Shown one piece after another: positions 10,338 to 37,378 of a DNA stretch of 64,000 nt (its first letter is position 1; each line of letters starts with the position of its first letter). The notes beneath the pieces were generated by a model. That model saw nothing but the letters and a program-made list of their open reading frames with translations, was not told where the DNA came from and did not search any database. The translations under genes and the position numbers were made by a program. Where the stretch lies: positions 2,108,001-2,172,000 of the forward strand of contig JACTVC010000003.1 in the NCBI GenBank assembly GCA_018417955.1, written 5' to 3'. This stretch comes from Laccaria trichodermophora. Its lineage: Eukaryota; Basidiomycota; Agaricomycetes; Agaricales; Hydnangiaceae.

Positions 10338-10838
10338 CACTTCAGTCACCCACTAACACCTGAAACAAGGGACGATCGGACACCTAAGCGAAGAGATTGA
10401 CAAATGTAAGGACAAATTAATCATTTTTGACTATTGTTTGTTGATAAGATGGACTCATTATAAGATTTTTAGTCTGACAACCAGTTCCGCCGAGGCCCGG
10501 ATCTTATTGTCGTATTTTTAAATTTCCATTAAAATTTATTATAATTGTGTTTGATTCCTTCGAAAAGTTGACAAATCTTAGGACAAACAATAAATATGTA
10601 GCCTAATATATCATACTTTCACAGCTTCTTACAAGTACAAAATCCGTAAATAGAACATATTCTTGAACAATTTCAAAATCCGTATCCAAGCCAAAGTTGA
10701 AAAATAGTCTGTGTAAATATACATCAACATATATATAATCTGACATCAAATCTGTCAAAAAGACGAAGCAAATGTCAGATTTGGAGTATTTCCAGGAAAC
10801 AAAGCGAATATCCCGGTGAAAGGGCCACTCACGGGATA
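10338..10838 (+). repeat. Left TIR of element A
   Basis: 501 bp, inverted relative to 36895-37378 plus 53479-53494, with scattered substitutions. The outer end is CACTTCAGTCACCC; the inner end is near the sequence CACTCACGGGATA. Confidence 0.9.
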
Positions 10839-10863
10839 CTCAAAGTTACTCATGGGGTGAACT

Positions 10864-12433
10864 CTATTTAGAGAATCGGACCGTTATTATGAACTGACCA
10901 ACCAACAGGGTCACAACCAGTGCGACGGCCTGCCATAATTTCAAGGAGTTAGATGCGGCGTGGTGAGGTTGGGCTTGGACCTGGACCGGTGGGATCATAT
11001 TCTCAACCTAGGAGGGAAAATTCGTATTCGAAATTTTCATAGATTACAATAGCGCTTTACCTTGGCAGGTTCCCAAACCTTGATGGCGGCACCGTTTGAG
11101 TCCGAGGAGCCTGTGATGATAAGGCATCCATCTGAAGAGGAGTATGTCTATTCGGCAAGTGAGAATTTTTAAGAATGATACAACCAATGGAAGGAAGTTA
11201 CCGTAACAATCTGCACCAGTGTTCCAACTTGTAAAAGCTATCAGCTTTAGAATAGGTCTAAAGGAAAAAAAATACCTTGTCCATGTGGAAGAACCGTAAG
11301 TAGACCTACACAGGAGTCGTAGACCCGAGCAGACCCATTATCTCCACCAACAACTATGAGGGTCCCCTGAAGCGCAGAAGAAACGAGAAGTGGGACATTG
11401 AGACGAATGGGATGGGTGAATGATCGCAGTGGTTGGCCTGGAGGCAGTGTGTATATGTCGATTCCGTTGAGGAGATTTGTCACTATCAGTAACTGGTTGT
11501 CCGCTGCCATCGTCGCATGGCCACTGCGTACGCCCATCAAATTAAGAATTATGGTGTGTTGTGCCTACGCACATTCGAGTCGGTAACTGGTATGACCACA
11601 ACATAGTCCAAGGCGAGACCTGGTATGCAACTCTACAGAGCAAAGACAGGAATGAGCTTGGAAAGAAGGCGCCGGACTTACAGGCCACCTACACTTCGTG
11701 CGACTCCAAATAAGTGACAAGCACACTTGAGCCCTGATCAAAAAAGGAAACGCTCCTAGCGATAGCTTCCCGTGGACTCGTCGCAATGATGTTGGAAAGT
11801 TGTCCTAATCTCCCCAATTTAGTAGCGTTCAATGAATGGTTTCAGAAGCTCACCGTTCGAATCAATCGTCAACAATTTCAGACAGCCGTTTCCGACGGTA
11901 GCGATTTGTTTGCTCCTCGAGCTGAAATCGATGTCCTCGACAGGTCCAACATGAGCAGCTGCAGAGGCAGCAAGATCGTAATGATTCTATAGTATAGAGT
12001 GAGTGAAGGGGGATGAGAAAGGGGACAGGGCTTACCTTCGTTGGCGCCTGGCAATAAACCGACAAAGTGCCATCGGCGCAGCCAAAAGCAAAGCTTGAAA
12101 TTGGATCGAGCGATGTGGGCGTCCAAGCCGAAGCGGAAATGGAGCCGTTGAATAAGACGGAGATGACCTGGAATTCGATCCCTTGGACCAAGTCCCAAAC
12201 TATAACGAGACAATCATCGCCTGCGTCAAATAAATTAGATTGGATACGCTGCGAAGATCGACGCAAGCTCACCTCCGCTGAGAAGCCTTGAGCCATCTTG
12301 GCTTATTTGGAGGGTATTGATCGCATTAGTGTGGCGAGTGAGTGTTTGCTTGCACTTAAACTAAGATCGTATGAGAACGGCCATTGCGATGCATGTTCTG
12401 AGTACTTACCGTAGGGATGGTGATTGAATTCAT
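10864..12433 (-). CDS. WD40 protein with C-terminal membrane anchor (long type, left copy)
   Basis: Reading the minus strand from ATG at 12433: exon 1 is 24 nt (12410-12433), exon 2 12273-12354, exon 3 from 12220, followed by several further exons down to TAG at 10864-10866. WD40-like units are visible: TRHTNAINTLQISQDGSRLL, then DDCLVIVWDL, FAFGCADGTLSVY, IATVGNGCLKLL, SGHATMAADNQLL and VGGDNGSARVYD. The C-terminus (LKLWQAVALVVTLLVGQFII) is a hydrophobic stretch ending about ten residues before the stop, as in tail-anchored proteins. Gene structure and sequence match the copy at 30800-32412, including the 24-nt first exon and ARSVSF...LESHEV. Predicted role is a membrane-attached interaction scaffold; the partner is unknown. 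Internal exon borders after exon 3 are only partly resolved. Confidence 0.78.
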
Positions 12434-12820
12434 CGTAGGAGGGTATAGGATACCTATCATCCCGTCAATTATAGACCACAAAGAACAAAAAAGGTGGCCA
12501 ATTGTCTCCTGTTCCTCATTCCTGCATTCCAATTATCTTTCTTTTTGTCTCCACGATTCTCTTTCTCTTTGTTCTTTATTTCGTTTCCTACGCCTACTTC
12601 TTACAGCTAAGGTAAAGTTCTACTATGAATGTATCTACATATGATGAGCGGGAGTGAGCGGGAAGAGTGTGTTTGTGTGGTTTGGCGTCTATTGGCTTGA
12701 GTGACTTTAGGGGAGCCTTACAAGGATCACGTGGAAGGATGTGAGGCTGCCCTAAAGTAGCTGTTGTCAAAACCAACTCGGCGCGTTGCTGTTGCCTCCC
12801 TTCCTCCCACAACCACTCAC
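12434..12820. other. Upstream region of the left WD40 gene
   Basis: No gene seen. It is CT-rich near 12520-12590 and contains the CACGTG-centred dyad at 12704-12758. Confidence 0.5.
12704..12758. promoter_or_regulatory. CACGTG-centred dyad, copy 1
   Basis: ACTTTAGGGGAGCCT at 12704 and AGGCTGCCCTAAAGT ending at 12758 form inverted arms around CACGTG at 12728-12733. It lies about 270 bp upstream of the left WD40 gene. CACGTG is the core of bHLH sites; the regulatory role is inferred from its symmetry and its recurrence at 26004. Confidence 0.55.
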
Positions 12821-13369
12821 TCACCATGACACTGGGGAATCAATATATATTCGTAGTATATGTAGTTTCAGAACGAATATACAATAGATGAGTGAATGAC
12901 CGGTAATAGCCCGGTCAATAGTAATCGGCGAGCCTGAGGTCCTACAGGAGTGAGTAATTGTTCCGTGGCTGGTCGACGTCAATGTTGACGTTTCCAGGGC
13001 GTGCTGTTGTCGTAGGCGTCGGTTGGCATAGGGGTTATTGACGCATCGCAATGCTCTTACAATTGGTGTGTTGCCCGCTCGGTTGGAACTCAAGGAGAAA
13101 CATTTTGACTCTTCAGTAGACAACACATTATTGTTCGTATCCACTACAAATGCACTTCCGGCGGTGAGCCGCATCTCAACAAGAATCCGCTCAATCGCCA
13201 GTCCAAAGCCACATGGCACCAGCCAAACGTAACTCTTCACCGCCTCGAGATGCACTACGCCCATATCCGCGAAGTGCAGTTGCTTCATCACTCCTCCAAT
13301 CTCGAGGTACTTCCCATAGTGCTGCACAGGCACTTTCGGTACTGGTAAGCTCTCCCTCCTTGTTGCCAT
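12821..13369 (-). CDS. Possible 182-residue protein, unrecognised
   Basis: An intronless open frame from ATG at 13369 with a hydrophobic segment near the C-terminus (LIYCIFVLKLHILRIYI). I recognise no family. It overlaps no better candidate, but such a frame can occur by chance in this GC-balanced region, so support is weak. Confidence 0.25.
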   Translation of the reverse strand: MATRRESLPVPKVPVQHYGKYLEIGGVMKQLHFADMGVVHLEAVKSYVWLVPCGFGLAIERILVEMRLTAGSAFVVDTNNNVLSTEESKCFSLSSNRAGNTPIVRALRCVNNPYANRRLRQQHALETSTLTSTSHGTITHSCRTSGSPITIDRAITGHSLIYCIFVLKLHILRIYIDSPVSW

Positions 13370-13896: not shown

Positions 13897-15616
13897 ATGC
13901 ATCAGGAACCGGGCACCGAAGCAATCCCGCTGCAAGGAATATCGCCAGGAAATGCGACCACGACCCCAATTTCTCACTTGGTTCGTCCTTCTAGTTATCT
14001 CTCTTCTATTTACTCACTGGGCGATGGGAATTAGCTTTCGGACCAAGACGTGAACATGTCGGAAAACCCACCTGCTAACCCCAGGCCTATCACAGTAAGT
14101 TACTTTCGTGTTTAAGATAATCCATCCGCTTAGAAATTGCAGAATAGCGAAAACATACACCGCAACATGGAAGGCACTTCTGACGATAACGGAACAGCTC
14201 GTCCACCCACCTCTGGCGCAACTGATCCTCCGTTGGACATTGGAAATTTTATGGCTTCGAGCGGGGTGAGTGTTGGCTAAGATCTTTGTACACAGACTTA
14301 GACGGGCCACAGCTTTCATCGGAACTTACCTCACTTCTTCTGCGTGGCGTCGGAATAGCCGTGCAGGAAGGCGTGAAACAAGGGGTGAAAGAAGCTATAG
14401 AGACAATGACGACACCATCAAAGGCAACGCCATCGAAGAAATCACCCACTAAGAGGTCAGCCTCCCACCGAAAAAGTGAACCAATGTCCCATGATGGAAG
14501 TTCTGAATCTTCCGCCGACGACGACGACTTCATCTCCGCAAGAAAACCAACTGGTGAGAAGACTGATGAAGAGAAATCATTTCATGTAAGCGTCTTTGGT
14601 CTATGTATGACCAGATCCTGACGTTAGTACCGCTAGACCATCCTGAAGGATTATTTGAAGGGAAAGAGCCTCTGGAATACACATGCCAGTAAGACCGCAG
14701 ACCGGTGCTTGGTCAACGACTTCGAAAACGATAACAACGACGGTCCCACCCTCGATGAGCCTGTCTTTGACTGGTCTTCCAAGATGAGCAGCATGTGGAA
14801 CGACCAGCTGCTCTACCATATGGCAGTCGACATCATTCCGAAAATCAGAGACACTGAAGATTTGACCTTCCCACGCCAATTCAAGGACATTGGCTTTGTG
14901 AAGCGGGTCCTCATCACCAAACTCCGTCGCACGCGTTACAGGTACCAGAATTCGATTGCTCCAGCTCACGGAGATCCCGAAACCACCGAACAAAAGCAGA
15001 TAAGGGTTGAAGCTGAAAGGCTGGATGAAGAACGGGCAAACCGGCGGCGCACTCGCCGTTTAAACGTGAGCAATCTCGGTATCTTATCGTGGGTCGCTTC
15101 TCATCACCTCTCAGACCTTCAAACGTCGTAAAGCCATCATTCAGGCCAGATTACACGAAGATAAAAGCTTCTGGAGGCATGTCGAGGAGGTCCTAGTCGA
15201 ACTCGGAAATGCAGGCATGAGCTCCGATGAAACCGACAAAGAAGACGACGGCCGTTCTTCCAAAGTTGTCCGCCGCGTTCCTAAGTTTTGGCTGGATGAC
15301 CAAGTGTCACTGCTGTGGGACGCTGTTGAACGTTACGGGAAAGGCCTCAAGCGACGGCGCCCTGGTAATGCACCAATCACACGCCTTCGGGAGGCAAGTA
15401 TGTTAGTCGATACAGCTTATACTAAACTCCCTCGGGCGGCTGCTGGGTTACCAACAAACTACTACAACGACTTGTGGTGGAAGTCTCTGAGCAAATCAAG
15501 ACAGCAGAAGCTCAAGGCAAAACCTCCAAAAGCGTTGCCATCCTTCGTAAGCGTTTAGTTTTCACGCATATATCCTCCCTAATATTTTCTTATAGGACCA
15601 TCTCCAGCGTAGTTGA
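13897..15616 (+). CDS. Agaricomycete 'GMSSDE' family protein, transposon-associated
   Basis: Multi-exon gene whose 3' part is clear: an exon with SLWNTHASKTADRCL ... PVFDWSSKMSSMWNDQLLY up to RRTRRLN at about 15064, an intron ending with CTCTCAG before TFKRRKAIIQARLHEDK, the signature GMSSDETDKED (near 15215), RRVPKFWLDDQV, then GLPTNYYNDLWW and a short last exon ending at TGA 15614-15616. This is a recurrent, uncharacterised agaricomycete family; I know of no function. The 5' exons (13897-14580: Ser/Thr/Pro-rich, acidic) are tentative and the start could be as far up as 13489. The gene converges on the Plavaka transposase, whose stop is about 100 bp away, which suggests it is a companion gene of the element. 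Confidence 0.65.
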
Positions 15617-15715: not shown

Positions 15716-18700
15716 TCAGAAATCCTGATTTTACAGTAAGTCAACAACGGCCTCATAGAAAGGAACCGATGTACCTCAATAAGCGGGCGAAGAACAACTT
15801 TGTTGTCTGCCCACTGTCGTTGATTCGCAGCATATATCTTCTGTGTAACTGGCACAATTTCAACTTGAAGGCTCCTCTCTTGCGACCAAATTCTCGCTCC
15901 AAAGTCAGCGTAACTTTCGAAAGTTGAGTCTTCCACTTCCCGATATGTATGAACGGCGATAAAAATTTGACCTCCTTTTGATACAGGTGAGAAGATTTGC
16001 CGAATAACCGCTGGGACGAGGATTTGTTGATTTGGTGGTTGATAAAAGATGATGCTGTTTCGGGGAGTTGTGTTCTCCATAGCGAACCCTCGACCATTGA
16101 TATCGTAACGTGCGTATTGATTCACCCGTTTTGGTTGCTTCTCTTTTGTATAGAGCTCGAATGCGGAGTGGACATCTTCCTCAAGATCGACCTCCTTGAC
16201 CTTGACCTTTTTAGCGTGTTCCTCTTGATCTAAAGTGTGAATATCGTGCATCAAGGTACCGATCTTGGAATTCGGGAAGCACTCGTGAAGAATGGGTACA
16301 CATTTCTCAAGCACTTTGGGACACCCTGGGCGTTCAACCAGGACCTTCAGCTGGCTTGCTGCACAGAAGGATTTCAAAGTCGTTGCCTCAAGTTCTCCTG
16401 TGGAACAGCGGATAGTTAATGTATGGGTCATTTCAAACAATAAAGATCGAACTAACCAATTTTATAGTTGTTGTTGACCTTCTGTAGGATGCCAATCAAT
16501 CTTTCGAAAGGGAACATCCACCATCCATGGATGGGTCCAAACCTCAAAAGGAAATCGGGAAGATGCAGCGCGTTATGGTGCACAGGATGCAGATCCATGT
16601 TCGGGCAAAGTTCGCGAAGGCTTCTCAGGTACAGTTCCAAGTATCGTCGAGCCGCCTCCGCATGTCTTGCGGAGGTTCGATGTGAAGTAGCCCATCGAAT
16701 TGCCATCGACAACAACATTGTGCTCTCGACTACCTGCTGGCGCCGGAGCCGAAGTTCATCTGGAACGTCAGCCCCCCCAGTCGACCACATCTTCATCAAC
16801 GATACCGGAAGGTCAAACTCGATACATGTTCTCCATTGATCAGCTTTGAGTTTCCCGTGAGCGGGCGAACCAAAGTTGGCTGGTGGGCCAGCTTGCCAGG
16901 TGGGCCGCATCGTATTCATGATGTCTTCCTGTATCTGACGTAGATCTTCTGTGTGGAGCATCGCACCAGAATCATTGCTAGCGGTCTCGTCACCGAGATC
17001 AATGACGATTTCCGACAGACCACCTTCAAGGCCAACACTCTGCGTAAATTCAACGTCATCCTTCTCACCTCCTTCCGGGGTGGTCGTGGCTGCAGGATTA
17101 GACCCGCTTTGCGTAGGGAGAGATGCCTGTCCTTTACTGTCAGAGTTGTGTCACCACAAGAACGTTTACTCACCAGAAGGGGACTAATGAAGTGTAACTT
17201 TTTTGATTTTTTCCCCTTGAATTTTATCTGATCTTGAATACCACGCTCAGAACAAAGCGCGCGGAGGACCGGAATTGAAAATTTGTGCAAAGATCCTTGC
17301 GACGGATTGTTGGCCATCACTGCACGGGCCTTTCTAAGCTCCTTTTCCGAAGCCTCGCGCTCCTCAGTAACGTCCAAGTCATCAGGCGGCTCTTCCCAGT
17401 GTGTTCCTATCACAACTCGGAAGTGGTGTTTGACCAAGCCAAGAAAAAGGTTATGCATCCCGTCGACAATGACCCAGTGAATGGGATTCCAATACGACAA
17501 TCGCAAAAGTTCGGACCACCGGACACCTGTTTTCTTATAAAGTTTCTTCCTCTCTGATTTAGTACGAGCATCCCGCCAAGCTTCTGCGGCTGCTCTGTGC
17601 TCCTCCGGTGAAACTTTCTTCCAGTTGGAGTAATCAAGGTTATTGATGTCCGATTTCGATAGATAACACAAAGAGCAAAATCTGTTGGCTGAGTGGCCTG
17701 CGCACCCGTTCAGCTTTCGGGATCCTGGAAGATCAGCAATGGCAACCACCACTGCCTCGCGAGAACGACGGCCGTCAGGATGCTCAAACGTTTTGCTGTA
17801 CCAGGTCCCGCGGTGATAAGAACGATTAAGGACATCAACCAAAGGAGCCAAAAACGGATTCAAGCCATCCAAGCTCGGCTGTTTGGGACCTGGAACGATA
17901 CCGGCAAGATACATGTTCTCCGGCTTGTAACAAATACTAGGTGGCAAGCTAATGCATCCCATAGCAAGGGATCCGACTGATGCCGACTTTCCAGCAGCGC
18001 GATTATGATATGGATTATATCCATCCCAGCTAATGCTCCAAACTGTGCGGATTTCATGGTTAGCGTCGACGAAAACATCCCCACTGGCGTCAAGGAACTT
18101 GCGAATGACGTTGCCTTGGTTGATTCCGCGCAACTCATCCACAGCCATACAGTCACGCGTCCACCGAATGGCTTCTTCAATGCCGGGACGGGCGTAAAGC
18201 GCTCCAACAAATGCGGTAAAGTCTTGCATCACATAGGGTCGAATGGGCACTCGAAGACTAACCCCGTCTTTAACTCCCAGCTTCGTCAAACGTGCGCCAC
18301 AAGGCTGGCTCGTGGGGAATCGTTTAAAATTGCATGTTCCTGGGTAGGTCTTTCTTCCATCTTTCTCGCCAGGTGGATAGATGTTGGAACATGAGGGGCA
18401 TGTTGCATACGTGATTGTCTTGGGGTCCAGGTCAAAAATCTTTCGCGCTGTGCGGATGTCCTTGGGCAAGTTGTCTAACGGTAACTTCTTACCCAGGCCA
18501 GGCTCCATCTGTTCAAGCAGAATGTGAACCATTTTCAAAAGAAAGGTGCATGACTGGCCGGAAGCATGGGCAAAAAGGCTGATGACAAGCGCCATAAATA
18601 ATCCAACAACCACTGCTGGACTTCCGTTTTTCAGGGGATGATCAAAGTGCCGTGCTGGAAATGAGCGTTAGGTATCCTTGCTCGATCGTCATAAGCTTGG

Positions 18701-19409
18701 CTTGCTTACAATTGTCGTAAAACTCTGGAGAACGCCTGATTTCAGCATCAAGTCGTACCCATTCGTTGATGTCCTGGTCTATTTTCTTCACCGTATCTAC
18801 CAAACGGGCTCTCATGGCCAAAAGGAGAGCGTTCGTGCCCTCATTAACGTCCGTCTTCAAATTCTTCAGTCGTGAGTGGGTGTCCCTGAACCAAACAGAT
18901 TCCTTTTGCAAAAATTCATTCACCAATTGCCTCGATGGAAAGCGCGTGTTTGTCGTTGAGGTGAGTAGCTGCCCATCCCCATGCCAGTCTCGCAGAATGT
19001 TTGTCACCTCACGATCCCGTTTCTCAATCTCCAGATCTAGATGATATAAGGAGTAATAAAACTCTTTCCCTGTATCACGAAAGTTTCCCGAAGGAGGGTC
19101 TCTAGCCAAAGACGATGGACTCGGAGAGGGAGGGGTAGTCGATGAAGGGAATGACTTGGCTTGTGTGAACGTAGTGTGGGTAGGTGAGAGGTGGTTGGGC
19201 AGCGTCGCCACCACGGAGTCAGAGAGGCTGAGCTTGAACACCTCGTTGTGCAGATATTCAATAGTTTCGTTTGATTCTGATTTTGTTTCGTGAAGTTTAG
19301 ATTTGGCTTCTTTTCGACTGTGGATATCGAAAGTGGCTTGGGTGACTGATGAGCCGTTGCAGGCGAGGCAGTAGCACAGGCGCAGTCGAGTTTTCTTTTT
19401 GCTAGACAT
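15716..19409 (-). CDS. Plavaka-type (CACTA/EnSpm, tnp2) transposase, apparently intact
   Basis: Five exons on the minus strand (18710-19409, 17174-18654, 16457-17126, 15775-16397, 15716-15724) join with consistent phases and give 1160 residues. The N-terminus has a Cys/His motif (CYCLACNGSSV ... H). The transposase core shows VWSISWDGYNPYHNRAAGKS, PPSICYKPENMYLAGIVPGP, SANRFCSLCYLSK and the conserved VIVDGMHNLFLGLVKHHFR; then HGKLKADQWRTCIEFDLPVS and HALHLPDFLL-like text (HNALHLPDFLLRFGPIHGWW). This is the tnp2/Plavaka family, a DDE enzyme that cuts CACTA-like ends. No stop or frameshift was found. It is the likely transposase of element A. The tiny last exon (Asp-Phe-stop) is the least certain part. 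Confidence 0.88.
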
Positions 19410-19654: not shown

Positions 19655-20174
19655 ATGCCGCTCACACTTAGGATATCGTTTGAAGCAGAATCGAAAATCA
19701 TTCCCCCTCCTCTTACGCTCAGACGTGTATGGACGGCTGAATCCGAAAGTCACCAGCATTCAAAAACGATTGCTGAGTCGAAGAAAATTCGAAAGCCAGC
19801 AGGCGAGGTTGGGCGACCAAGCCGAGGGGGTTATCGGTTGATGGAGGCGTTGGGATTAAGCGACAAGGAATATCAGGAAATCCAGGTATGATATGTGTGG
19901 CGTTTTTTGGATGCGGCTAACTAATGGCCACTAGAACTTCGTCAAGAAGCAATGCAATACACACCTTCAAGTCAGTCGACCCTTCAACTCACAAGACTCG
20001 GAAAAATTAGCATTAATATGCCAAGAGGCATGTATATACTTGATTATTGGGTCGGCAGTTATTAACTGTATTTAGGTCTTGGCATTGTTTCCCACCTTGG
20101 CTCGTTATGAAGACAACTGGGCTACATTGGATTTCATTCATAGTTATTTACGCAACTGTACACGCAGAAAGTAA
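19655..20174 (+). CDS. Small agaricomycete family protein, copy 1 (140 aa)
   Basis: Three exons (19655-19885, 19935-20027, 20076-20174), all whole-codon lengths. Motifs: GRPSRGGYRLMEALGLS, then ALFPTLARYEDNWATLDFI. The second intron appears to be GC-AG (GCATGT...TTTAG). The paralogue at 36252-36882 has the same exon order and the same 93-nt middle exon. The family, with a GRPxRGGYxL...DNWA/DCWPVxDF pattern, is widespread and uncharacterised in Agaricomycetes. It starts 246 bp from, and diverges from, the Plavaka transposase, so the two may share a promoter. Confidence 0.72.
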
Positions 20175-20737
20175 TCTTCATAGGGCATAGTTCATACCAT
20201 TTCGGCAGGAAAAAGAAACAATGATATGTTTGAGAAGAGGATGCTGGTAGAGGAAGGCCATGCGAACGTTTTGGGTGTCGGTATAGCGCATGCTCACATA
20301 TACGACGATTCGTAGAAGATTTTCGACGGTGCGCGATGGTGAAAGGCATCCAACGTACTCATTTCGATTGGAAACGACGGCGCTCATTGACGAGTGCTTG
20401 TCTACCTCTGAAGCAAACACTTCTTGGTAAGTTGTAAATTCCAATGCTTCGATTGACTATTCACAAAGTGTACAGGACATGACCTATCCACGAAACAGCA
20501 CAGGTGGTAATGAGTAAGTAAGCTTGCAACGCCGCCCAGCCGCTCACCTTTGCCACTCTCCAGATTCGGCGCTACCAATGACATCCACAGCCGTTGATCA
20601 CGACCATCGTGAACGATGGCGTTGGCTCGTCGTCATCGGCCTCATGCCCCATCCTGACATTGCAACGTCGCAAGAGAGAGCCAGGGAATGCTGCATTGGC
20701 TTAGGGTAATGATAAAGAGCAAGTTAAGAGTACGCAC
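20175..20737. other. No recognisable gene between the small gene and the RPN12 fragment
   Basis: Minus-strand frames here (for example 20178-20444) resemble nothing I know and do not continue the RPN12 reading frame. It may be decayed captured DNA. Confidence 0.4.
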
Positions 20738-20959
20738 GAGCAACCACCAGATCGCCAAGGTTTACATTCCCTTGCGGAAGTAGCAAACCTGCCTGTATCA
20801 AACCAATCTACGAAACATGAGGTGGGATACTTGGAGAGCAGGGACTTTTTTTACCTTGAGTTGAGTAAGGACAGCAGCACACTTCTTTAGATCTGACGAT
20901 GGTTGTGCGTAGAATGCACGCTGAAGTCCTTCATACAGAGTCTTGAGCTGCGAGGCCAT
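20738..20959 (-). pseudogene. RPN12: 5' fragment of proteasome lid subunit RPN12
   Basis: From ATG at 20959, exon 1 (20855-20959) encodes 35 residues starting MASQLKTLYEGLQRAFYA and exon 2 (20738-20792) gives AGLLLPQGNVNLGDLVVA. This matches the N-terminus of the 19S regulatory lid subunit Rpn12/PSMD8, where an Arg-rich-to-Ile-Leu-Glu-x-Gly-Ala segment should follow; no such sequence is found downstream, so the gene is cut off at about codon 53. It is head-to-head with the proteasome beta-1 gene 93 bp away. The intact 5' half with normal introns suggests capture of genomic DNA, not of cDNA. Function is very unlikely. Confidence 0.62.
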
Positions 20960-21052
20960 CGTTGTTGTGTGGTTGCAGTAAGTGACGCGTCTGATAACAA
21001 GACGCGTCAGCTCGCATCAATTACAGTACTTGCACTTTCAATTTCTACCTTC
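20960..21052. promoter_or_regulatory. 93-bp divergent spacer between RPN12 and PRE3 fragments
   Basis: This compact region separates two oppositely oriented proteasome start codons and would be a bidirectional promoter in the parental locus. It contains the inverted pair GACGCGTC ... GACGCGTC (about 20986 and 21000). Confidence 0.5.
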
Positions 21053-26374: not shown

Positions 26375-28172
26375 ATGTTTCACTACGCCATCCAAAGCAC
26401 CTTCAACCTTTCAGCTCATACGTCATCTTTACCAACTGGTTTGGTTCAGGGGGTAAGCGAGTTCTACGCTTTTGTTACTCGGATTTAACTCATTGTCAAA
26501 TTCACAGATATCAGATTCCATTGGGACTCTGTTCAAACCAGTCAATCAAATAAGAAAACGACTTCGCGACGAAGTGAATGACGCATGGGGGTCGCCCAAG
26601 CGACAAAAAGTCGTGAGTAGTTGTGCTTGAATCCTATCGACTTCCCCCGTTGATTTCTTCAATTATTTCAGGACGTATTTTCCAGATTCTGCACGCCAGA
26701 GACGAAAGAAATGTCCCAACACACCCTGGTCCTGATGGACTTCCCCGACGAAATCATTCTCGTCATCTTGCGAAACGTGACGCTGCAGGAAGCCTTGCCG
26801 CTACTGCAGTGCAACTGGCGATTACGCTCAGTCGTTTCGCAATTTTATCTGAAGCATCATGGCTTCGTCATCCGGGATGACGACGTCGACGACATCACTC
26901 TCCAAGGCGACGTACCTGCAGCAGCCCTCTGCATGTTGTCAGCTTATCCGTTCGTCAACCGAATCACCCTCTGCTGCGACCTCTACTACCTTGTCGAGTA
27001 TAAGAATCTCCTCCTGTACATTTTACGCCAGCTCAAGGCTCTCATCTTCTTCAACATCTACTTCAATCCCTTGGACCTTGCTCTGCTACGTGATCGACGT
27101 ACCCCAAACGCCATTTATTCCGCGATTACAGCGCTACCTGGTGGCATATTCTCTTTCAAGATCGAAAGAGCCCTTGATCCACCACCCGTCAAGGCATTAT
27201 CTCAACCGCCACATCCACAGAGCCGTATTAACCATCGCGGGTTGAACTATTCCATCTCCCGAATCCGCGATCTGGGCTTATCCATGGAATTTCCTGTTAC
27301 TAAATCGCTCTCCAAAATATATGAGAGGCTACTTCAAGGGAAAGCCGTAACCAGCCTCGTCCTCTCGGATCAGTCGACTTGTTCTGCTTTCAACAAGTTC
27401 ATGAGATCATTAGATCTCCCCCTTCTCACTCACTTGCATTTTCTGATCACTTCCCGGTGCGGTATTAATCTCCCTCGGAAATTCTTTGCGCGACATCCAC
27501 TACTCCAGTCGGCATCTCTCTGTACCTACGGGTTAAAGTCCCAAATGCCGGACTCTCCGTCGAAATTGCTATTCCTTTCACACCTTGAACGAATTTCGCT
27601 CACCTCTAATCATCACTCGTGGGTGCACAATAATCCTCCTGCACTGCAACGCTTGCAGATCCGACTGCCTTTGTCATTGTACAATCCACGTGGTCGTACA
27701 TTCTGTTCCACTATGCGGACATTGGCAAACCCCCTCAAATCAGTGTCGGCGCAAGCTTTTGTGGGATTGACCATTGAGTTGTACTTTCCATACAGTCTCA
27801 GGGAACATATCCTCCACTGCTGCGAGACAGGAAATGTTTGTGAGTGTGCTCCTTCACCGCAAGCAATCGTTCCGCAGGCGAAGAGCCTCGAAATTAACCT
27901 CCGCTCCTTTCATCCCTTGATGTTGGTAAGCGACTCATAATCAATTTCCCTCCAAGTCACTTAGTTTTTCAATTTAGCGCTTTCTTTCTACTTGGATCAA
28001 GATCTTTCCGAATCTTGAGGGTGTTACCATCAAAGCAACGGACTCGCAACCTAATTTGTCGTGGAGCCCGATGATCCATGCATACTTAGTGGATTCATCT
28101 GCTATGCTGCCCCGTCTCAACATGTTCAAATTCTCAGCTGGGGGGGGTAATTACTCGGTTTGGGCCATATAA
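26375..28172 (+). CDS. F-box protein (543 aa), intact
   Basis: Four exons (26375-26452, 26508-26612, 26672-27925, 27978-28172), each a whole number of codons with good GT-AG borders. An F-box follows the N-terminal leader: DFPDEIILVILRNVTLQEAL...LRSVVSQF at about residues 71-115; the rest resembles the leucine-rich ligand region of agaricomycete F-box genes (LPLLTHLHFLITS, LERISLTSN). A basic KRxR-rich patch (IRKRLRDEVNDAWGSPKRQK) precedes the F-box. F-box proteins recruit substrates to SCF ubiquitin ligases; the target here is unknown. It lies between the two inward halves of the mirrored WD40 set. Confidence 0.85.
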
Positions 28173-29180
28173 CAGACTTACGCCCGAAAGCAAGACATGG
28201 GTCGAACTATAACTCATTCAGTAGTAGGTATTAACATACATGTAATATATAATATCATTGTGTATTAGCAACGCTTGTTTGAATTTTTTAACACAAGTTG
28301 CAGCGGGCGGCTATCGATCTGTCAAGAGGTGAGTTCTAATCGCCCATTGAATTCTGAGGAACTTACCTGTGTTATGATAGCCGGTGGCGCCAATTCTATG
28401 TTCACCGAGCTCTTTCCAGGTGGGAGAAGAGGAAAAGAATAAGATTGTGAGTGGTATTATGCAATTTCCGCCCACTCAAGTTCCTAAAGCACGTGCGGTT
28501 TTGACGCGACAACCCTAAAGTCGTCCGTATATATACCAACGACGAGTACAAAAGTGTCTTCTTTCTTCCCACTTACCTTATGCTCTTGCGATACCACTAG
28601 TACTTTCTCGCGATCATTCTCCCCTCCTTCCACTCTTTCATTAGTTGTGCTCACTACACGTAGATACTTTGTAGATATAATCAAATCTAGAATAGTCAGG
28701 TACCAGTCAAGAATGATCGAAGAAAACAAAAGCGATAAGTATGAATGGAAATGGAACTTTTCTCCATTTTGAAGTGGAGTAAGTACAACGAAGAGTGATC
28801 ACCCGACCACGGTTGATTGCGCATATCAGCAGGGTAGACATTCTTTTGTGAGTCGCGTCGACTCGTACTGTTGCCATGGTGTTCAGGGCAACTAACTATG
28901 TAACTATTCAGCATTTTTCACGGTGAGTCTTCAACCGGACCTCTAACAAATTTTTTAATTTATTGTCTTTTTAGTTTACGGACCCCGTTGAGACATTCAG
29001 GTCGATGTTGGTCAGTTCTAAAGTACGTGTTGATCCCTTGAAAATGGGTATTTCATGATTGCCGGACTGGACAGTTCTATCTATTGTTCGCCTCATATCG
29101 AACTGAGTTAAATACCAATGTTGCTAGACACGAACTACATCCTCAGTTCCTAACTTTCGAATCTCATCTCTAATATATAA
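28173..29180. other. Gene-free stretch between F-box and short WD40 gene
   Basis: Nothing convincingly coding. CACGTG at 28490-28495 with CCCTAAAGT at 28513-28521 forms a half of the dyad described at 26004. Confidence 0.45.
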
Positions 29181-30163
29181 TGAACCTCGTGAGTAGTGTG
29201 ATTTCTTCTGATCCTTCTAGCCCATATCGCCTCGTAGGTTCACTCTGTCGAGAAGCTCGTCCGTCATACGCGCAAGATCAGATGGCTCAGCCTTGACGAT
29301 GACCAATCATTCTTGCTTAGCACTGGTGAGTTGTCCTCTTTAACTTAAATTTGTCCCCTAATCCCTGATTTAGCTGAGGATGGTGTCATCGTTTGGGACC
29401 TCAAACTCCGAACGCATCAGGTCATCACCAACTCACCCAACTTGAATCGTCCTGCCTTCTGGACGCCGCTTCGCATGGACCTGTTCACGAAGGGCTTCGT
29501 ATGTGGAATGGGAGATGGAGAGCTTCACGTTTTTTGCTGCCGCTGGTCGGAGGTATGTTGTCAGTCGTAATTTGCCGTGATCTAACCATTTCCCATTTAG
29601 AATACATTCCATGAAGTTCTTGTTCTTGACGATGAAGAAGCCAAGGAACGTATCTTCAACTATCTCTTCTATTGTGATCAACAACGACGTAAGCTTTCTT
29701 CATCGTCCTGACCTGCCATTCATTAACATATATGTTATAGGCCGTTATGGTTACTTTGGTCATGCGCCTACGAATGAGTCATTTCCCGATGTACATGCTA
29801 ATCGAGGTGGTAGCTCCATGCTCATCAAAGCCGCACCCGAGCTAGGTGTTATCGAAATTCACCGGGTGAGCCCACGGCCGGTCTGTGGTTCTTCTGCTAT
29901 TTCATTGCTTTTATTGAACTGTGTGACAGGTTGAGCAATCCCACCCCGCCGTTGGAGGTAGAGAGATCCAGCAAGCCGGCCACAATGATGGGAAGGGAGG
30001 CACCGAACCACCCTGCCAGGACGAAGCCATCGAAGCTGCTGAGTGGTCACCTGGCTATAGCTATGGCCGGTTTTCCTTGTTTTTTCTTTTCAGATGCTTT
30101 CTTTACGCTAATCTTTACGGTCTTCCTTTATTATACGCGTATTTTTTATTGTTGCTCAGTTGA
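29181..30163 (+). CDS. WD40 protein with C-terminal membrane segment (short type, right copy)
   Basis: ATG at 29181 followed by a nine-nucleotide first exon (Met-Asn-Leu), then exons with VRHTRKIRWLSLDDDQSFLL, EDGVIVWDLKLRTHQVI, and GMGDGELHVFCC. A later exon (from about 29932) reads VEQSHPAVGG... into a hydrophobic tail (FSLFFLFRCFLYANLYGLPL LYAYFLLLLS) ending at TGA 30161-30163. Only two or three WD-like units are visible, so it may be reduced. It is the mirror partner of 24489-25518. Middle exon borders (about 29630-29870) are tentative. Confidence 0.58.
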
Positions 30164-30424
30164 GATGCATTTGTAGGTATATATTGACAACTCAATGCAG
30201 ACCGTTCATATATATCCAATCGTACAAGAATGCCCTACTAATACTAGTTTCTAACATAACTTACCTCAATGAGGGGAAACAATCTGGTCGTTTTCCCATT
30301 TGAGTGCATTATTCCGGAAGTGTCATCATCTTCTCGTAATAAAGTGGCGGCTTTAGAATTTTCGGTCCGAAAATTGTAAGGCTGCCCTAAACCTGACTGG
30401 ATATACTACGTTTCTCACACTGAT

Positions 30425-30799: not shown

Positions 30800-32412
30800 A
30801 TGAATTTCGCCTCATTGCCCAAGGTGCGAGGCCTTGCTCAGAACTGCCTCTACGCGTCTCACGTCTCTCTGTTTAGTTTGAACAGAAACATACCCTCGTG
30901 CGCCACACCAAACCCCTCAATACCATCCGGATTAGCTCTGATGGCACTCGTCTCCTAAGCGGAGGTTGTAAATTTTCTCCATTCGTATGCTACTACACAC
31001 TGACTTGAGTGGAGCAGGGGATGACGGACTTCTGGTTGTGTGGGACTTGCAATGCGGCCAGGAAGCTCAAGTTATATCAGTGGTATTCAACGGTCCTGTT
31101 TGCGCGGCTGTGTGGGCCCCTCCAGCTGATCACCCAACGGCGATGTTTGCATTCGGATGCAGCGATGGGACATTGTTCGTTTACCATCAGCCAATTCCAG
31201 AAGTACCCAAACCGTACTCTGTTCCTTCTCACTCACCTAAGCTGACGCTCACCAACAGCTCAAATATGAATATGCCTCCGGCACTGACGCACATGATGGC
31301 AGGATTGAAGATGTTGCATATGACCCTCAACAGAGCCGACTTGCAACTGCAGGGGATGGATGTGTCAAGGTATGGGACCTCGATCCTCAAGGTATCAGTT
31401 CTGTACCATTATGACCCTTATCCTTTCACTGACAAACGCCAGGACTCGTTACGAACATAGCCTGCGTTCCGGCAAGGCCGTTTATTGCTAGGAGTGTTTC
31501 CTTCTACGACAAAGGTCAGAATATCTTGATCTGTTACCTGGAGTCCCATGAAGTGTGCGTTTCTTTCACCAGTTTAAAGATTGAATGATGACCTTTCATT
31601 AGACTCAGCTACAAGATCGAGCCTTGGGCCCTGCAATGGAGACGTCAACTCCCTACTCGAATGTAAGTTCAGCCCGTACTCTCCCTTCGTTTTAATTTTG
31701 TAACTTCTCCGCAGTGGCCACGCGATTGTCGCTGCCGACAATCGGTCTCTCATCGTGTCTAACTTAGTTGATGGGGTCGATGTTTACTCAATCCCACCAC
31801 TCCGCCCAACAAGATCTTTCCAACACCCAATCCATACCAACGTCCCCCTAGTTGTCGCTTCAGCTTTGGGAGGTGTTTTGGTTATGGTTGGTAGTGATGA
31901 CGGCTCCCCTCGACTCTTCAACATTAATACCGGCCTGTTCTGCGCTGCGCTCCATCATGCACCATGTACGTCGTGCCTTACTCTCAAGCGCTATTCTCTG
32001 AAACTGTCATTCTTCAGCGGGCCTTGTTCAGATTGTCGACGTTGGTTGATCAAAATCAGAAATTGGTTTTACGCTAACCGATTGATGATAGGCTCACTCC
32101 ATCGGAAATCATTGTCTTTTGGCCACAGGTTCAACAGATATCGACGTCGACATTAAAGTTTGGCGCACAGTTGCGGCACGTCCGTTCATCAACTTTTTGA
32201 TCCAATATCACTTACCTTTGTTTTAGCCTGACGAAGAACAGGGTGTAGAACGCCCGGTTCCGCCCCCTCGATTAACATCTATTGGGATATGGCAGTTTCT
32301 CTTGATCATTATCCTGTCCTTATTCACGCAGGTCCTCATAGCGACCATTTCGAAGGACACATTATCTAAATTTGTAACCAAATACTTGACGCATCTTCCT
32401 AGAGGTTGGTAG
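30800..32412 (+). CDS. WD40 protein with C-terminal membrane anchor (long type, right copy)
   Basis: ATG at 30800 with a 24-nt exon 1 (MNFASLPK), exon 2 30877-30964 (VRHTKPLNTIRISSDGTRLL), exon 3 from 31018 (GDDGLLVVWDLQCGQEAQVI ... FAFGCSDGTLFVYH). Later exons give DGRIEDVAYDPQQSRLATAG-GDGCVKVWDL, ARSVSFYDKGQNILICYLES, a LVDGVDVYSIPPLRPTRSF block and VGSDDGSPRLF. The end is hydrophobic (IWQFLLIIILSLFTQVLIAT) followed by about 22 residues to TAG 32410-32412. It matches the gene at 10864-12433 in exon layout and sequence, in opposite orientation. Likely a membrane-bound beta-propeller; role unknown. Confidence 0.78.
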
Positions 32413-32551: not shown

Positions 32552-35148
32552 ATGTCTATAGTAGTAGGTATCAACAGTTGTGCTCCCAACTTAGTCTTAC
32601 TAGAATCAAATCAGAGCTCTTCGTCCCAAAGTCAAGGCAAAAAACGCGCGCGCGAAGTTTGTATCGTTCTGCTATGCCGAGGAATTCTAAGGCTCATCGT
32701 CTCCCCAGGATCCGGACTTGCGCGTGAACCGCTTTGTTGATGTGGAAGCCGCAGAGACCGACGCCGAGGAATGTGAAAATGAATTAGATGGTAACTTGGG
32801 TGCGTGTGCATCCAAGCATTTCGTTTTGAGTCTCACGCACTTATGTAGACTCGTTGATCGACGATAACGAGTTGGAGTCCGAGTCCGAGGATGCTGGTGA
32901 TTCGTTGATCACCCATACGCTGTTGGCGAAGGCGTTTCGTGAAGACGAGTCTGGAGTGGACTCAAAATGGCATTCATTCGTCCAGCGTGCTCACAAACGT
33001 GCAACGACCTCTACGCCTATCGCAGTAGACCGATCTTCTCCTGAACCCAGGGCAATTTATGATAACGAGAATTTGTGGGAGGTACCGTGCAAAGTGCGTA
33101 ATTCTTTTATACAGCGCGGACGAGTTACAAGCGCGTCAGCAGGTCGGTTACGAGGAAATTACTGTGTTCAACATCATGAAGTGGGCGCTACATGACGAAA
33201 TCCCCGCAACAGGAGCATTATCCGCGTTTGGACGTGCGACTCTTCCGGGGCGAGTTTTCATTGAAGCACATTCAATAGCGGATGCCAAGAGAATGCTCGC
33301 TCATGTCCCCCATGTTACTCCCAACAAAACAAAACCCGTTCCTAGGGATAACTACCTGGAGTACTTGACCGAAGGGAACACCTACACTCCAACGCCCCAT
33401 CATTGGGTCAGATTGCGGCGTCCGAGACTATACAAAGGCGATATCGCCCTGATAAGATATGTTGACGAGCGGTCTCTCCTAATCGACGTCGCTGTTGTCC
33501 CTCGGCACAACTTCACTGAAAACAAGAAAACCTCTGGACGCCCTCCACAGAAGTTAATGAATGCGTTTGAAGTGGAACACCTTCTCGGTCCTGGCAGCAT
33601 TTCTGTAAGAAATTGGCGGTTCCTGCTCACAGACGCAAAAGGTCGCGAAGAATTGTATTGCGAATGTGGTCACCTACTACTCGACGACCTCGACACAAAC
33701 TCTTACATCCCAGCGGAGGCAATGCCCACCATCGCTGAACTGCAGATGTTCAAACCTTCTTACGATGTTCCAGAGGAAGTTCTGACTAAAACTCGGGACA
33801 GAATCATGCTAGAGTGTCTCCGGTTCGGAGATCAGGTTAAGATACTCGTTGGAGAGTACCAGGGATTATTGGGAGAAGTCGAAGCAATTGACGGCTTGGA
33901 AGTTCAGGTCACTATACCCACACAGGGCGTCACTCAGGGAATTTTGATGCCATATCTACGAAGAAACTTCCAGATTGGGGATGAGGTCCAGATTGTGTCA
34001 GGCCCGAATCCCGGGTTTATAGGATGGGTGACGGCTGTTGAATCTGGAACTGAAGGCGATCCAAAAATTTCTGTTGTTAACATATCGCAGGAGAAAGAGG
34101 TAATGTTTACGGGTCGAGAGGTCCTTACTTATAGCTTACCCTTTATGGTTCAGGTTAGGACATCGTGTTCAAAGGTCAAATTTTTTTCTTCGCCATTTGT
34201 GTGGACAACAATACGTCCAATACCACCTCCACCCCCGAACAGGCAGTACGCGATCGTCAAAACGATCAACAAAAAAAGGAAGCAGGATCCCGATGAAGGC
34301 CGGAAAGTCAGAATAAACGAAAATCCCAACCGCCGATATGAAGGCAAAGAAGTAGGTGTGGTTCACGGGAATTTTAAAGGTTACCACGGAAGAATCAAAT
34401 CTACGACCCCGCAAGGAGACACCCAGGTTGAGCTGAATGCTACAGCTATATCCTCAATGAGAGTTGAATGTTTTCCTCTCATCCATTTACGCGTTCTGTA
34501 AGTTCATCTTGCATTTTGACTTAATTGACTGATAGCTTTGGCAGTCAGAAAAACGATACACTTTCGGGGCCGCTGTCTGGACTTCGCAACGTCTCTCAAT
34601 TGACAGCACCTACCGTAAAAGAGGCAGGACCGTCATCTCTCATATGCTCGACTCCTCTTCCACTGCCCAGAGATATACCAGGAAGTCCAGCATGGGACCC
34701 TTCGTCAAGAACACCTCGGCAAAACCAGGATGAGGGGGACGAAACGCCTTCAGAGGCAGTTCCGTATTGGTTGGCCGATGATACCTTCAAAAAATACAAA
34801 TTTAGATTGAAAGTACATGATCCATCAAAACGGTTTGAAGGGGGGATTTACCATGGCAAGTTTGCGCAATTCTTGTCCGCAATCGGTGGCAGTATTGCAA
34901 AGGTCTCAATCAACTTCAAAACCCCGGAAATACCAATACAGTATCTGTTGCCCCTCCATCCAACGATGGAGGGGGAACTCGTTGTGCCACTTAGCGGTCC
35001 GCTTCGCGGTCAGCTTCTGAAGGTCGCGAAATACAATGATGGTCGATGTAGTTTGAAAGATCCAGCCAAACCACTTCCGCGTCTCAAGAATTACAAACCA
35101 CCTACCATGCAATCCGACCAGTTAGTCTCGGTGACGGGGATGATCTAG
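32552..35148 (+). CDS. SPT5-like protein with NGN and KOW domains
   Basis: After an acidic N-terminus (ETDAEECENELDG, NELESESEDAGDS) comes LWEVPCK, an intron (about 33092-33137), then VGYEEITVFNIMKWALHDEI ... LPGRVFIEAHSIADAKRML, the NGN fold of SPT5, and WVRLRRPRLYKGDIALIRYV, a KOW motif. Further KOW-like blocks are at LRFGDQVKILVGEYQGLLGE, FQIGDEVQIVSGPNPGFIGW and EGKEVGVVHGNFKGYHGRI. The last exon (from about 34546) ends at TAG 35146-35148. SPT5 joins SPT4 on RNA polymerase II; this protein is shorter and divergent, so it is a paralogue rather than the housekeeping factor. The exact start and the proline-rich stretch around 34200 (possible intron) are uncertain. Confidence 0.75.
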
Positions 35149-35311
35149 GGAATTCTGAAGTGCCTGAACGGTCGTTTCTTATGCTGTTTTTTGTCGAGAG
35201 TCGCCCCTGGCTCCTGTGTATATATTCTATATCAACATTGCAATTCAGTACATTCCGAATACTCGTTCATTTTCTGGTCGCAACACCTGGTTCTCCCCGA
35301 ATTCCCATCCT

Positions 35312-36080
35312 TCAGGGATGCTTTTCTGGTTGAACTGCAGATAATGAGATGAGTCGTATCATCAGCATCTTGTTGGCTGACGTCCTCTCACCGATTACAC
35401 GTAGGTAGCCATCTTTGAAAAGCAAGTCAACGTCGTCAGCTTCGAGCGTATTCACCTTGTACTCAAGAAACGGCCGCAGCTTCCGTGGATCCAAAACCTA
35501 TGAAGGCGTTTAGCAAGGTAAAGACTTCGGCTTATCATTCTTACGACGACTTTTCCGTTCATGCGAAGCTTTTGAAGGACTGTGATGAGGTCGAGGTCTC
35601 CATTGTCGTTGCACTCGACATCAATCTCTTGTTTGTGACACCAGTCTTTTGGCCCTTCAAAGCGTCGTATGCGGAGTATGCGACGGGGAACTTCAGGAAC
35701 GCTTTGCAGTTTTTTGCGGACTTCAGCTCCAGCTTCGTCTTTGTCCACTAAAGGCAAGCTCCGCATATCGACCGCCACCGTCTCAATACCAATCTCAATA
35801 TCGGCTTGACTATCTTCATGCGTACCCAACACCTGAGATCGGAGTAAGTTTATTTCAGCGCATCTATCTGGCAGCGTCATCTCACAAAATTTATCAAAGC
35901 ATTCTCGTAGTCGGTTTTGGTAGGCTCCGCGCGGTTTCTTTTGGCAGTGGAGGGGACAGATAGTTGGAACTTTTGACATAAAGACTTCAGGATATCCCTG
36001 CGAAACTTTTTGAGAGCGGTCGGCGCGATAATATCTCGTTGTAAGATACGTTCGGCGTGTTCAATCGTTAGGTCTGCCAT
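35312..36080 (-). CDS. 222-aa protein with SAP-like N-terminus
   Basis: Three exons (35886-36080, 35545-35832, 35312-35496), or 35312-35497 for the last, with whole-codon phases. The start MADLTIEHAERILQRDIIAP followed by FRRDILKSLCQKFQLSVP resembles a SAP-type DNA-binding helix-extended loop-helix; this is a weak resemblance. The end (FLEYKVNTLEADDVDLLFKD GYLRVIGERT) is unrecognised. It converges with the SPT5-like gene and diverges from the small gene at 36252, 171 bp away. Confidence 0.6.
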
Positions 36081-36251
36081 TACAAGTCAATGAGGGCGTT
36101 GCAGTCCACTGACTCTTTAAAGGCTTAATTTCCATAGCAACGGCGACCATGTCCCAACTGTTGTAGTGGTTTTTGTTCTTGTATAACGACGGGAGAACAA
36201 TGCCAACATATGGACTTAATAAGCTGCGACTTTTTCGCTCGAACTGCTCTA

Positions 36252-36882
36252 ATGCCTCCCCATCGCATCCAACGTTACCACTCGCGTCCAACCATAAGGT
36301 CCATATTTTCCCCTGAGCGCTTGCTCACCCCTCCACCAAATACTCTAAGATCTGCATTCACTTTCATCGATCATTATGATGTCACGGATCCGGACAAGCC
36401 CGAAACAGCCGAGTCATCAAGTAGCAAATCATACCGCCCAATTCTGATGTTAAAACCGCGAGGGGAAGTGTCCCGGGCTTACAACCTTCAGGTTGAGATG
36501 AAAGTCGACGACAAACAATTCGCAGATATACAAGTAAGTCCTAACTTTTATTGATGCCTAAAGCCTCGCTGATCCTTACTTAGGATCTAATCTCGCGATT
36601 GGTTGCCAACCACCTAGAGACCAGCCTTTCTTTTAGGCGACAATCCAGCGCCGATTTAGATACCGTTTATGAAAAGGTGATTTAGCTCAAGTTGAGTCAA
36701 TGCGACTAACAAAGCTGCAGGCACTCGAAAAATTTCCATTGCTAAAGCGGTTCAAAGATAATTGGGCCATCTCTGACTTTGTGAAGCTTGAGCTGAAACG
36801 GACCGTGCAGCAATCTCGGAGATCGCGTAAGAAAAACTCAAAGGCGCGCATTTCCCCGGACAATGATTTCGACGACCAGTGA
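36252..36882 (+). CDS. Small agaricomycete family protein, copy 2 (178 aa)
   Basis: Exons 36252-36533, 36584-36676 (93 nt) and 36721-36882, all in phase; an upstream in-frame ATG at 36210 is also possible. The last exon ALEKFPLLKRFKDNWAISDF aligns with ALFPTLARYEDNWATLDF of the gene at 19655, and the middle exons are the same length. The C-terminus is basic (RRSRKKNSKAR). Its stop codon is 12 bp from the right TIR of element A, which makes it an integral gene of A. Confidence 0.72.
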
Positions 36883-36894
36883 TCGGGCTGTGAT

Positions 36895-37378
36895 TATCCC
36901 GTGAGTGGCCCTTTCACCGGGATATTCGCTTCGTTTTCTGGAAATACTCCAAATCTGACATTTGCTTCGTCTTTTTGACAGATTTGATGTCAGATTATAT
37001 ATATGTTGTTGTATACTTACGCGGACCATTTTCCAAGTATGGCTTCAATACGAATTTTGAAATTGTTCAAGAATTTGTTCTATATACGGATTTTGTACTT
37101 GTAAGAAGCTGTGAAAGTATGATATATTAGGCTACATATTTCTTGTTTGTCCTAAGATTTGTCAACTTTTCGAAGGAATCAAACACAATTATAATAAATT
37201 TTGATGGAAATTTAAAAATACGACAATAAGATTCGGCCCTTGGCGGGATTGGTTGTCGGACTAAAAATCTTATATCGAGTCCGTCTTATCAACAAACAAT
37301 AGTCAAAAATGATTAATTTGTCCTTGCATCTGTCAAACCCTTCGCTTAGGTGTCCGATCGTCCCTTGTTTCATGTGTA
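36895..37378 (-). repeat. Right TIR of element A, main part
   Basis: Inverted copy of 10355-10838, cut at TA 37377-37378 by element B; the outermost 16 bp (GTGGGTGACTGAAGTG) continue at 53479-53494. Confidence 0.9.

Follow-up and report, generated by a model that had tools for sequence, protein, structure and literature searches.

A giant multi-gene CACTA/EnSpm transposon of Laccaria trichodermophora with accessory genes that probably serve the element

Gene-carrying DNA transposons of eukaryotes have mostly been described with captured gene fragments, and their size is thought to be limited by transposition efficiency (PMC6431247). Among the open literature, the nearest printed case to the element reported here is the EnSpm group of Chondrus crispus, with elements of 16-20 kb and 4-5 open reading frames (ORFs) (Kojima 2013, cited in PMC6431247). 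CACTA/EnSpm elements of rust fungi have CAC..GTG tips, a 3-bp target-site duplication (TSD), and an EnSpm-like transposase, and in some of them a single chromatin gene, TET/JBP, is added (PMC12730594). Here, we describe an element with these same features in Laccaria trichodermophora, located in a 64,000-nucleotide stretch of DNA (the window, C23:2108001-2172000 of a 59.0-Mb assembly of 77 contigs; C-numbers denote contigs of that assembly). Like the Chondrus elements it is an oversized multi-ORF EnSpm, from which it is set apart by its larger size and gene count (about a dozen predicted genes). In contrast to the rust-fungus elements, it has eight co-selected genes in units of 25-33 kb, including genes for SPT5-like, F-box, and tail-anchored WD40 proteins, and no match to TET/JBP was found in Pfam scans of the element. 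We consider it probable, at about 80%, that this is a giant autonomous CACTA/EnSpm transposon whose accessory genes serve the element. Set against captured fragments, a CACTA unit of this size that moved repeatedly with so many predicted genes, eight of them constrained, and whose gene set is seen again in a group that has diverged deeply makes the question of selfish, useful, or junk cargo testable within one genome.

An inverted-repeat search of the window found two arms of 493 nt (93%) at 10353-10845 and 36888-37380. The element proper occupies 10357-37376 (27,020 bp), with terminal inverted repeats (TIRs) that are 489 bp long and 93.3% alike, and with CAC..GTG tips, the left one reading CACCTGAAAC and the right one CACATGAAAC. 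CACTA/EnSpm transposases have a DDE triad with C(2)C and H(3-4)H motifs, and the elements have subterminal repeated motifs that these transposases bind. Within the TIR, a 20-bp motif occurs twice (90%), together with other short repeats; its binding role is putative, and it may occur by chance. The element interrupts a KDZ element (10338-53494), 19 bp inside the left TIR of the latter. When its flanks were joined minus one TAA, they reproduced the intact right-hand KDZ TIR at 79 of 79 compared bases, which establishes at base level that the element was inserted here, where its edges lie, and that the TSD has 3 bp. The stretch 10357-37376 is one DNA transposon nested in another transposon, with the empty site preserved. 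An earlier note on this DNA had proposed one unit of 27 kb bounded by 500-bp TIRs with CACTA-like termini, which agrees with the 489-bp TIRs, the tips, and the TAA duplication. The element does lie in the stretch 10338..37378 given there; the first position of that stretch, 10338, marks the left end of the interrupted KDZ element.

Using the inner part of the right TIR as the query, we found 27 TIR matches genome-wide; a single one was at 74%, and the other 26 were at 92-100%. Six copies have both ends and account for twelve of these matches: the window copy and those on C56 (32,963 bp), C15 (32,465 bp), C22 (25,423 bp), C47 (27,030 bp), and C2 (35,723 bp). All six have CAC..GTG at both tips, and five have a matching 3-bp TSD (TAA, TAT, CCA, TTA, and TCA), with TGT versus ATA at C2. 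The C22, C47, and C15 copies align with the window copy over 23,786, 24,551, and 21,878 of 27,020 bp, respectively, in the same order, with long pieces at 87-96%, short ones down to 67%, and one short inverted piece near 22.8-23.1 kb. A search of the same genome with the TIR, as the earlier note had suggested, thus recovered the same gene set between the same TIRs at other, unrelated sites (C22, C47, and C15), and not solo repeats only. Both ends of the C56 copy are 99.2-99.4% identical to the window copy (15,837 bp covered). Over the 9.5-14.7 kb compared, the left halves at the C23 contig start and on C28, C41, and C32 agree at 99.95-99.98%, and their outer 500-bp flanks share nothing, suggesting recent moves. 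The 500-bp flanks of 14 left and nine right ends are mutually unrelated, except for C5, C62, and C47b, which have one common flank and are therefore not independent insertions. The 15 remaining TIR matches are single-ended; at least six head toward contig ends, and for the others one end was found.

The genes are arranged in the order WD40a(-), G3(+), transposase(-), G13p(+), small gene(-), WD40b(-), F-box(+), WD40c(+), WD40d(+), SPT5-like(+), 'SAP-like'(-), and G13(+) (Table 1). For the codon comparison, we used the window, C22, C47, and C15 copies plus, depending on the side, C23t or C2 (3-6 copies per gene); for G13p and WD40b both C23t and C2 were used, so that near duplicates were counted twice. 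We excluded C56, C28, C41, C32, C12, and C7 because they are near duplicates, together with any copy that covered less than 55% of a gene; codons 0-25 of WD40a and 478-491 of SPT5-like were skipped (intron or start errors of the models). The ratio of nonsynonymous to synonymous differences (pN/pS) was pooled, with bootstrap 95% intervals. Within the limits of this measure, eight genes (transposase, G3, WD40a, WD40d, SPT5-like, F-box, SAP-like, and G13) are under purifying selection between copies, with pN/pS values of 0.12-0.42. For WD40b and WD40c, no departure from neutrality was detected.

Genome protein searches found the same genes together again, in whole or in part, at seven other loci (family 2, the window element and its copies being family 1). 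Identities with the window proteins were 26-58%: 51-58% for the transposase, 28-51% for G3, 26-33% for F-box, 30-42% for SPT5-like, about 39-57% for WD40 (150 of 437 candidates scored), and 33-43% for 'SAP-like'. Around the diverged F-box genes, SPT5-like and WD40 genes lie within 30 kb at seven of seven loci (uniform-chance estimate for SPT5-like, 4e-10), the transposase and G3 at five each, and SAP-like at four; it should be noted that the 30-kb limit and the family 2 grouping were chosen after the matches were seen. Conversely, F-box, SPT5-like, and WD40 genes lie no more than 30 kb from each of the five transposases at 51-58% identity, whereas near the 18 more distant transposase loci (≤46%) there was no F-box, G3, or SAP-like gene and only one SPT5-like and one WD40 gene. 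G13 adjoins the SAP-like gene on C76 too (tblastx). The genes that recur are those of low pN/pS, recurrence being scored singly for genes other than WD40b, WD40c, G13p, and the small gene. From dispersal alone we infer that family 2 is mobile. Its left edge, C76:127311-127320, is a guess: C76 and C23 are alike from 127006 on, C34 only from ~127320, and a host-like C6 match stops at ~127310. At C76:127311-161000, the SAP-like/G13 pair is inverted and borders the gene set on the opposite side compared with family 1, an end rearrangement.

The selection on these genes and their joint recurrence at distantly related loci suggest that the accessory genes are working parts rather than random baggage. 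The earlier note had judged the composition to look selected, and this applies to the eight constrained genes and the recurring set but not to WD40b and WD40c, which have no detectable constraint. Several points weigh against a transposon with a gene programme of its own. The bootstrap intervals ignore the shared ancestry of the copies and gene conversion and are not strict tests, F-box and WD40 are promiscuous domains, and several copies, mainly C15 and C47, have stops, inserts, or frame changes. The C56 copy retains the ends only, around a different 17-kb middle. C2 has the 'right' form of the TIR on both sides and no TSD, around 11,152 N (C2:311610-322763); given this run of N, possibly an assembly gap, in the middle and the missing TSD, its sides may be a misjoined scaffold, and we did not use it as a case of end swapping. 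In family 2, all five other gene types are present at only three of the seven diverged F-box loci, and no TIRs or TSDs were found in the 7.1 kb of C76 searched, where the inferred left edge had no inverted partner. Furthermore, C76 and C23 share ~300 bp beyond that edge, so a segmental duplication is possible for family 2.

The assignment to a superfamily was weighed against the Plavaka group, since the earlier note had described a Plavaka element with a Plavaka-type transposase. EnSpm elements have CAC..GTG tips and a 3-bp TSD, PlavakaA has TGT..ACA and PlavakaB CATCA..TGATG termini (Kojima 2025, PMC12730594), and the PF18759 domain has been used as a criterion for Plavaka (PMC8290104). Besides the tips and TSDs of the two-ended copies, the tnp2 domain (PF02992) is present above its cut-off in the window transposase, which has no PF18759 match at E ≤ 1. 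The same profile matched at least 141 pieces elsewhere in the genome, and the window transposase was not among them (123 of 182 candidates scored). The element termini, CACCTG.., have neither the PlavakaA nor the PlavakaB form (PMC12730594), and the 3-bp TSD does not discriminate, as it fits Plavaka (2- or 3-bp) as well as EnSpm. Plavaka transposases are related to those of EnSpm (PMC12730594), and two of 117 transposase homologues, at 36% identity, have PF18759 beside PF02992, with PF18759 scores of 25.2 and 29.0 bits on rescoring (cut-off, 26.3); this weak pairing suggests that the EnSpm and Plavaka groups grade into each other. With no PF18759 and with differing termini, a Plavaka element is very unlikely, and the Plavaka label gives way to CACTA/EnSpm. 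Pfam scans of the element ORFs and models (all except G13p and the small gene) found neither a Starship captain (tyrosine recombinase) nor the polymerase B and capsid genes of Polinton/Maverick elements or proviruses, and a comparison of the SPT5-like exon with viral contigs gave seven pattern matches and no relative.

A different reading of the gene content is that, like Starships, the CACTA element took up fungal genes from which the fungus benefits, so that selection acts via the host. Purifying selection by itself cannot separate host benefit from element benefit, and capture did occur in the window copy, where 20690-22791 holds exons of the host proteasome beta-1 gene (PF00227 at 56.8 and 36.5 bits; PRE3, E 1e-52), split by other sequence. 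This 2.1-kb segment is missing in C22, C47, C15, the C23 start, and C2, the copies aligned across the point (C56 is uninformative), and has no other match among the compared copy sequences. It thus appears to be a fresh, random host-gene capture, unlike the shared genes: the one clear capture is disrupted and confined to a single copy, whereas family 2 again has the core set, at 26-58% identity. All 20 F-box hit rows lie, by position, at family-1-like or family 2 loci (C17:942 kb being a family-1-like relic without a TIR match), as do 40 of 43 G3 hit rows, the other three representing one fragment (C17:103903-105184). No metabolic, resistance-like, or effector-like gene is among those for which a domain was recognised, a group that does not include G3, SAP-like, and G13. 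We therefore regard host cargo as unlikely. Passive carriage, in which the TIRs of a Pack-CACTA-like unit bracketed neighbouring genes by chance, would be in line with the gene fragments carried by DNA transposons such as Pack-MULEs (PMC6431247), with the private captured fragment, and with the neutral-looking WD40b and WD40c. It is largely refuted by collinear genes in several copies, eight of them at pN/pS 0.12-0.42 and recurring in a diverged group, and has very little probability left. An element-serving gene set in a CACTA/EnSpm transposon is the reading that we adopt below.

The gene models are approximate and come from a purpose-written small gene finder. The earlier note's intact transposase of 1160 amino acids (aa) has the same length in the five-exon model, with PF02992 at 45.0 bits against a cut-off of 28.6. 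Its SPT5-like gene is supported by Pfam matches above cut-off (KOW5_SPT5 41.9, KOW 33.3, and NGN 29.8 bits), and residues 22-447 align with the Spt5 chain 8qsz_Y (E 9e-26). The stretch with CTR-like PGSPAWDPSSRTP was seen by eye and reaches only noise level in HMMER. A stop at codon 484 in four other aligned copies of this gene was considered as gene breakage and rejected: the models of C22, C47, and C12 place an intron there and give 763-782 aa, so these copies are not broken genes. Likewise, the first start of WD40a was judged a wrong model start, with codon-14 stops in four other aligned copies and an intron at this point in the first model.

Other gene labels of the earlier note hold in part. 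The F-box gene is present but scores 16.7 bits, below the Pfam cut-off of 20.5. WD40 is above its cut-off in WD40a, b, and d and below it in c; all four genes have a hydrophobic segment at or just past the C-terminal end (maximum Kyte-Doolittle 1.9-2.5), and where other copies were checked, for WD40a and WD40d, it is retained; this fits the description of four tail-anchored proteins except that the b and d tails were joined by eye and the frame of c is uncertain. The 'SAP-like' gene exists and is conserved in family 2, and the SAP identity has no Pfam support, so the name is a label only; G3, 'SAP-like', and G13 have no Pfam match above cut-off. G13p and G13, described as two copies of a small family, seem related at their C-termini, by eye only. 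The outermost genes lie as close to the TIRs as was described, at 18 bp (10864) and 5 bp (36882) in our models instead of 26 and 12 bp. Structure prediction for pieces of G3 gave mean pLDDT values of 50 and 34, and a search of Rfam gave no match at the gathering score.

Table 1 Features of the CACTA/EnSpm element and its insertion site (window positions; pN/pS with bootstrap 95% interval).
Feature	Position	Strand	pN/pS	Remarks
TSD TAA, left copy	10354..10356	.		paired with 37377-37379
Left TIR	10357..10845	+		489 bp; starts CACCTGAAAC; holds repeated TTGACAAATSTWAGGACAAA motif at 10397 and 10568
WD40a	10864..12360	-	0.27 (0.14-0.48)	WD40 repeat protein, C-terminal hydrophobic segment; N-terminal exon ~12273-12360 (first model)
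G3	14056..15558	+	0.27 (0.18-0.41)	435 aa, unknown fold; adjoins transposase; conserved in family 2
Transposase	15716..19409	-	0.22 (0.16-0.28)	1160 aa, 5 exons; Transposase_21 (tnp2), weak DUF4218
G13p	19655..20174	+	0.41 (0.20-0.82)	small gene, C-terminus like that of G13 (by eye)
Private insert of window copy	20690..22791	+		host proteasome beta-1 (PRE3/PSMB6) exons; absent from copies aligned there; Pfam and PDB matches
Small predicted gene	23487..23983	-	0.34 (0.17-0.68)	internal 172-bp repeat; 3 copies compared
WD40b	24489..25458	-	0.75 (0.43-1.38)	model 24747-25458 joined by eye to hydrophobic ORF 24489-24704; no detectable constraint
F-box protein	26735..28172	+	0.42 (0.30-0.56)	461 aa; score under Pfam cut-off
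WD40c	29180..30303	+	0.76 (0.49-1.25)	degenerate WD40 gene, score under Pfam cut-off, frame uncertain; no constraint detected
WD40d	30987..32412	+	0.12 (0.06-0.19), model	model 30987-32049 plus hydrophobic ORF 32227-32412 attached by eye
SPT5-like elongation factor	32552..35148	+	0.33 (0.26-0.41)	~780-800 aa; acidic N-terminus, NGN, KOW repeats, short CTR-like stretch (by eye), C-terminal domain
'SAP-like'	35312..36324	-	0.39 (0.23-0.69), over 35312-35880	family without name; conserved in family 2; start uncertain
G13	36210..36882	+	0.23 (0.12-0.39)	192 aa; ends 5 bp from TIR
Right TIR	36888..37376	-		ends ..GTTTCATGTG
TSD TAA, right copy	37377..37379	.		
Intact right tip of KDZ element	53416..53494	-		empty site of the 27-kb element; 79 bases identical to joined flanks

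Based on knowledge of the superfamily, the tnp2 transposase would bind the outer TIR and cut and paste the whole unit, and the same transposase would also mobilise elements of ~530 bp that resemble miniature inverted-repeat transposable elements (MITEs) and have the same tips. The SPT5-like protein could enter RNA polymerase II elongation complexes and thereby favour transcription of the long element or counter its silencing, two roles that cannot be told apart here. The F-box protein might recruit an SCF ligase and send a host restriction factor to degradation, and the tail-anchored WD40 proteins might serve as anchors or scaffolds at a membrane, for instance the nuclear envelope. These functions (transcription, counter-silencing, SCF, and scaffold) are read from the domains and are tentative. 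It is possible, although doubtful, that mushrooms harbour a clade of giant CACTA elements with a fixed multi-gene programme, including a self-made transcription and counter-silencing module (SPT5-type factor, F-box, and membrane-anchored WD40). If so, the accessory genome of these CACTA elements would be virus-like, and many of 46 further SPT5-like loci in this genome would belong to a large family of polymerase II factors that is carried by transposons and has gone unrecognised.

These 46 loci lie outside family 1 (hit rows merged; e.g., C29:11225, C37:331936, C73:22309, and C11:1179823), and eight are near family 2 F-box genes. One of the 46 should be the host's own Spt5. Four score identically and look like a young repeat family, and other transposons may carry SPT5 paralogues too.

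Among 7999 candidates scored in a search of 5.8 billion proteins, G3 had two matches, both from Laccaria bicolor: LACBIDRAFT_305163 (92% over 66%) and LACBIDRAFT_336096 (86% over 46%). The transposase exon had 117 matches, including LACBIDRAFT_306513 (91% over 17%), a metagenomic protein (95%), and more distant ones from Coprinellus, Trametes, and Gymnopilus, and the SPT5-like exon had nine public relatives, eight of them at 65-79% identity. For the same gene set in related agarics, as the earlier note had envisaged, this is a weak test, with protein matches in Laccaria bicolor. The element could also be present, unrecognised, among the 23 TIR families reported for L. bicolor (PMC3411680). A search of titles and abstract beginnings in the open literature, with subscription papers and supplements outside it, found no multi-gene CACTA element with SPT5-like, F-box, and WD40 genes, and no paper joining transposon, SPT5, and Agaricomycetes.

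Several other repeats were seen in the genome and the window. Ten MITE-like elements of 533-549 bp (e.g., C9:386643-387175) have only the outer tip in common with the TIR (pieces of 72-124 bases, 75-84%). Seven of the PF18759 pieces sit, by position, inside young copies of the element (C23:3370-3840 and equivalents on C2, C7, C12, C28, C32, and C41), and the window copy has no match there; they look like an inserted Plavaka piece. The KDZ element is ~16.1 kb without the insertion, has TIRs of more than 500 bp and a 7-bp TSD (CTCATAA), encodes a KDZ transposase (PF18758, 215.8 bits), and also holds long ORFs at 46977-48836 and 49073-50224. Two Kyakuja families of L. bicolor are reported to have 7-bp TSDs and no TIRs (PMC12730594). 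ORFs for a PIF1-like helicase and DUF6570 at 87-3251 and 4605-5732, with a sub-threshold Helitron N-terminal match, indicate a probable Helitron just left of the element. An array with 160-bp spacing and inverted partners (arms 71-74% complementary) occupies 56073-59183.

Starships have variable cargo, and VANDAL elements belong to the MULE superfamily. Like Starships, the element reported here is a giant fungal element with many genes; Starships have a tyrosine recombinase captain (PMC13066641), whereas this element has long TIRs and a tnp2 transposase, and its gene set recurs. VANDAL/VANC of Arabidopsis (PMC10398659, PMC5735166), a transposon with a dedicated anti-silencing protein, is the model for the role proposed here, although the superfamily and the protein are different and anti-silencing is only a proposal for our element. 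SPT5L/KTF1 of plant RNA-directed DNA methylation is likewise a specialised SPT5 paralogue linked to transposon control, but it is a host gene that silences (PMC3111484), whereas the paralogue in Laccaria is transposon-borne and may thus provide a handle on how fungi silence long repeats and how these are re-activated.

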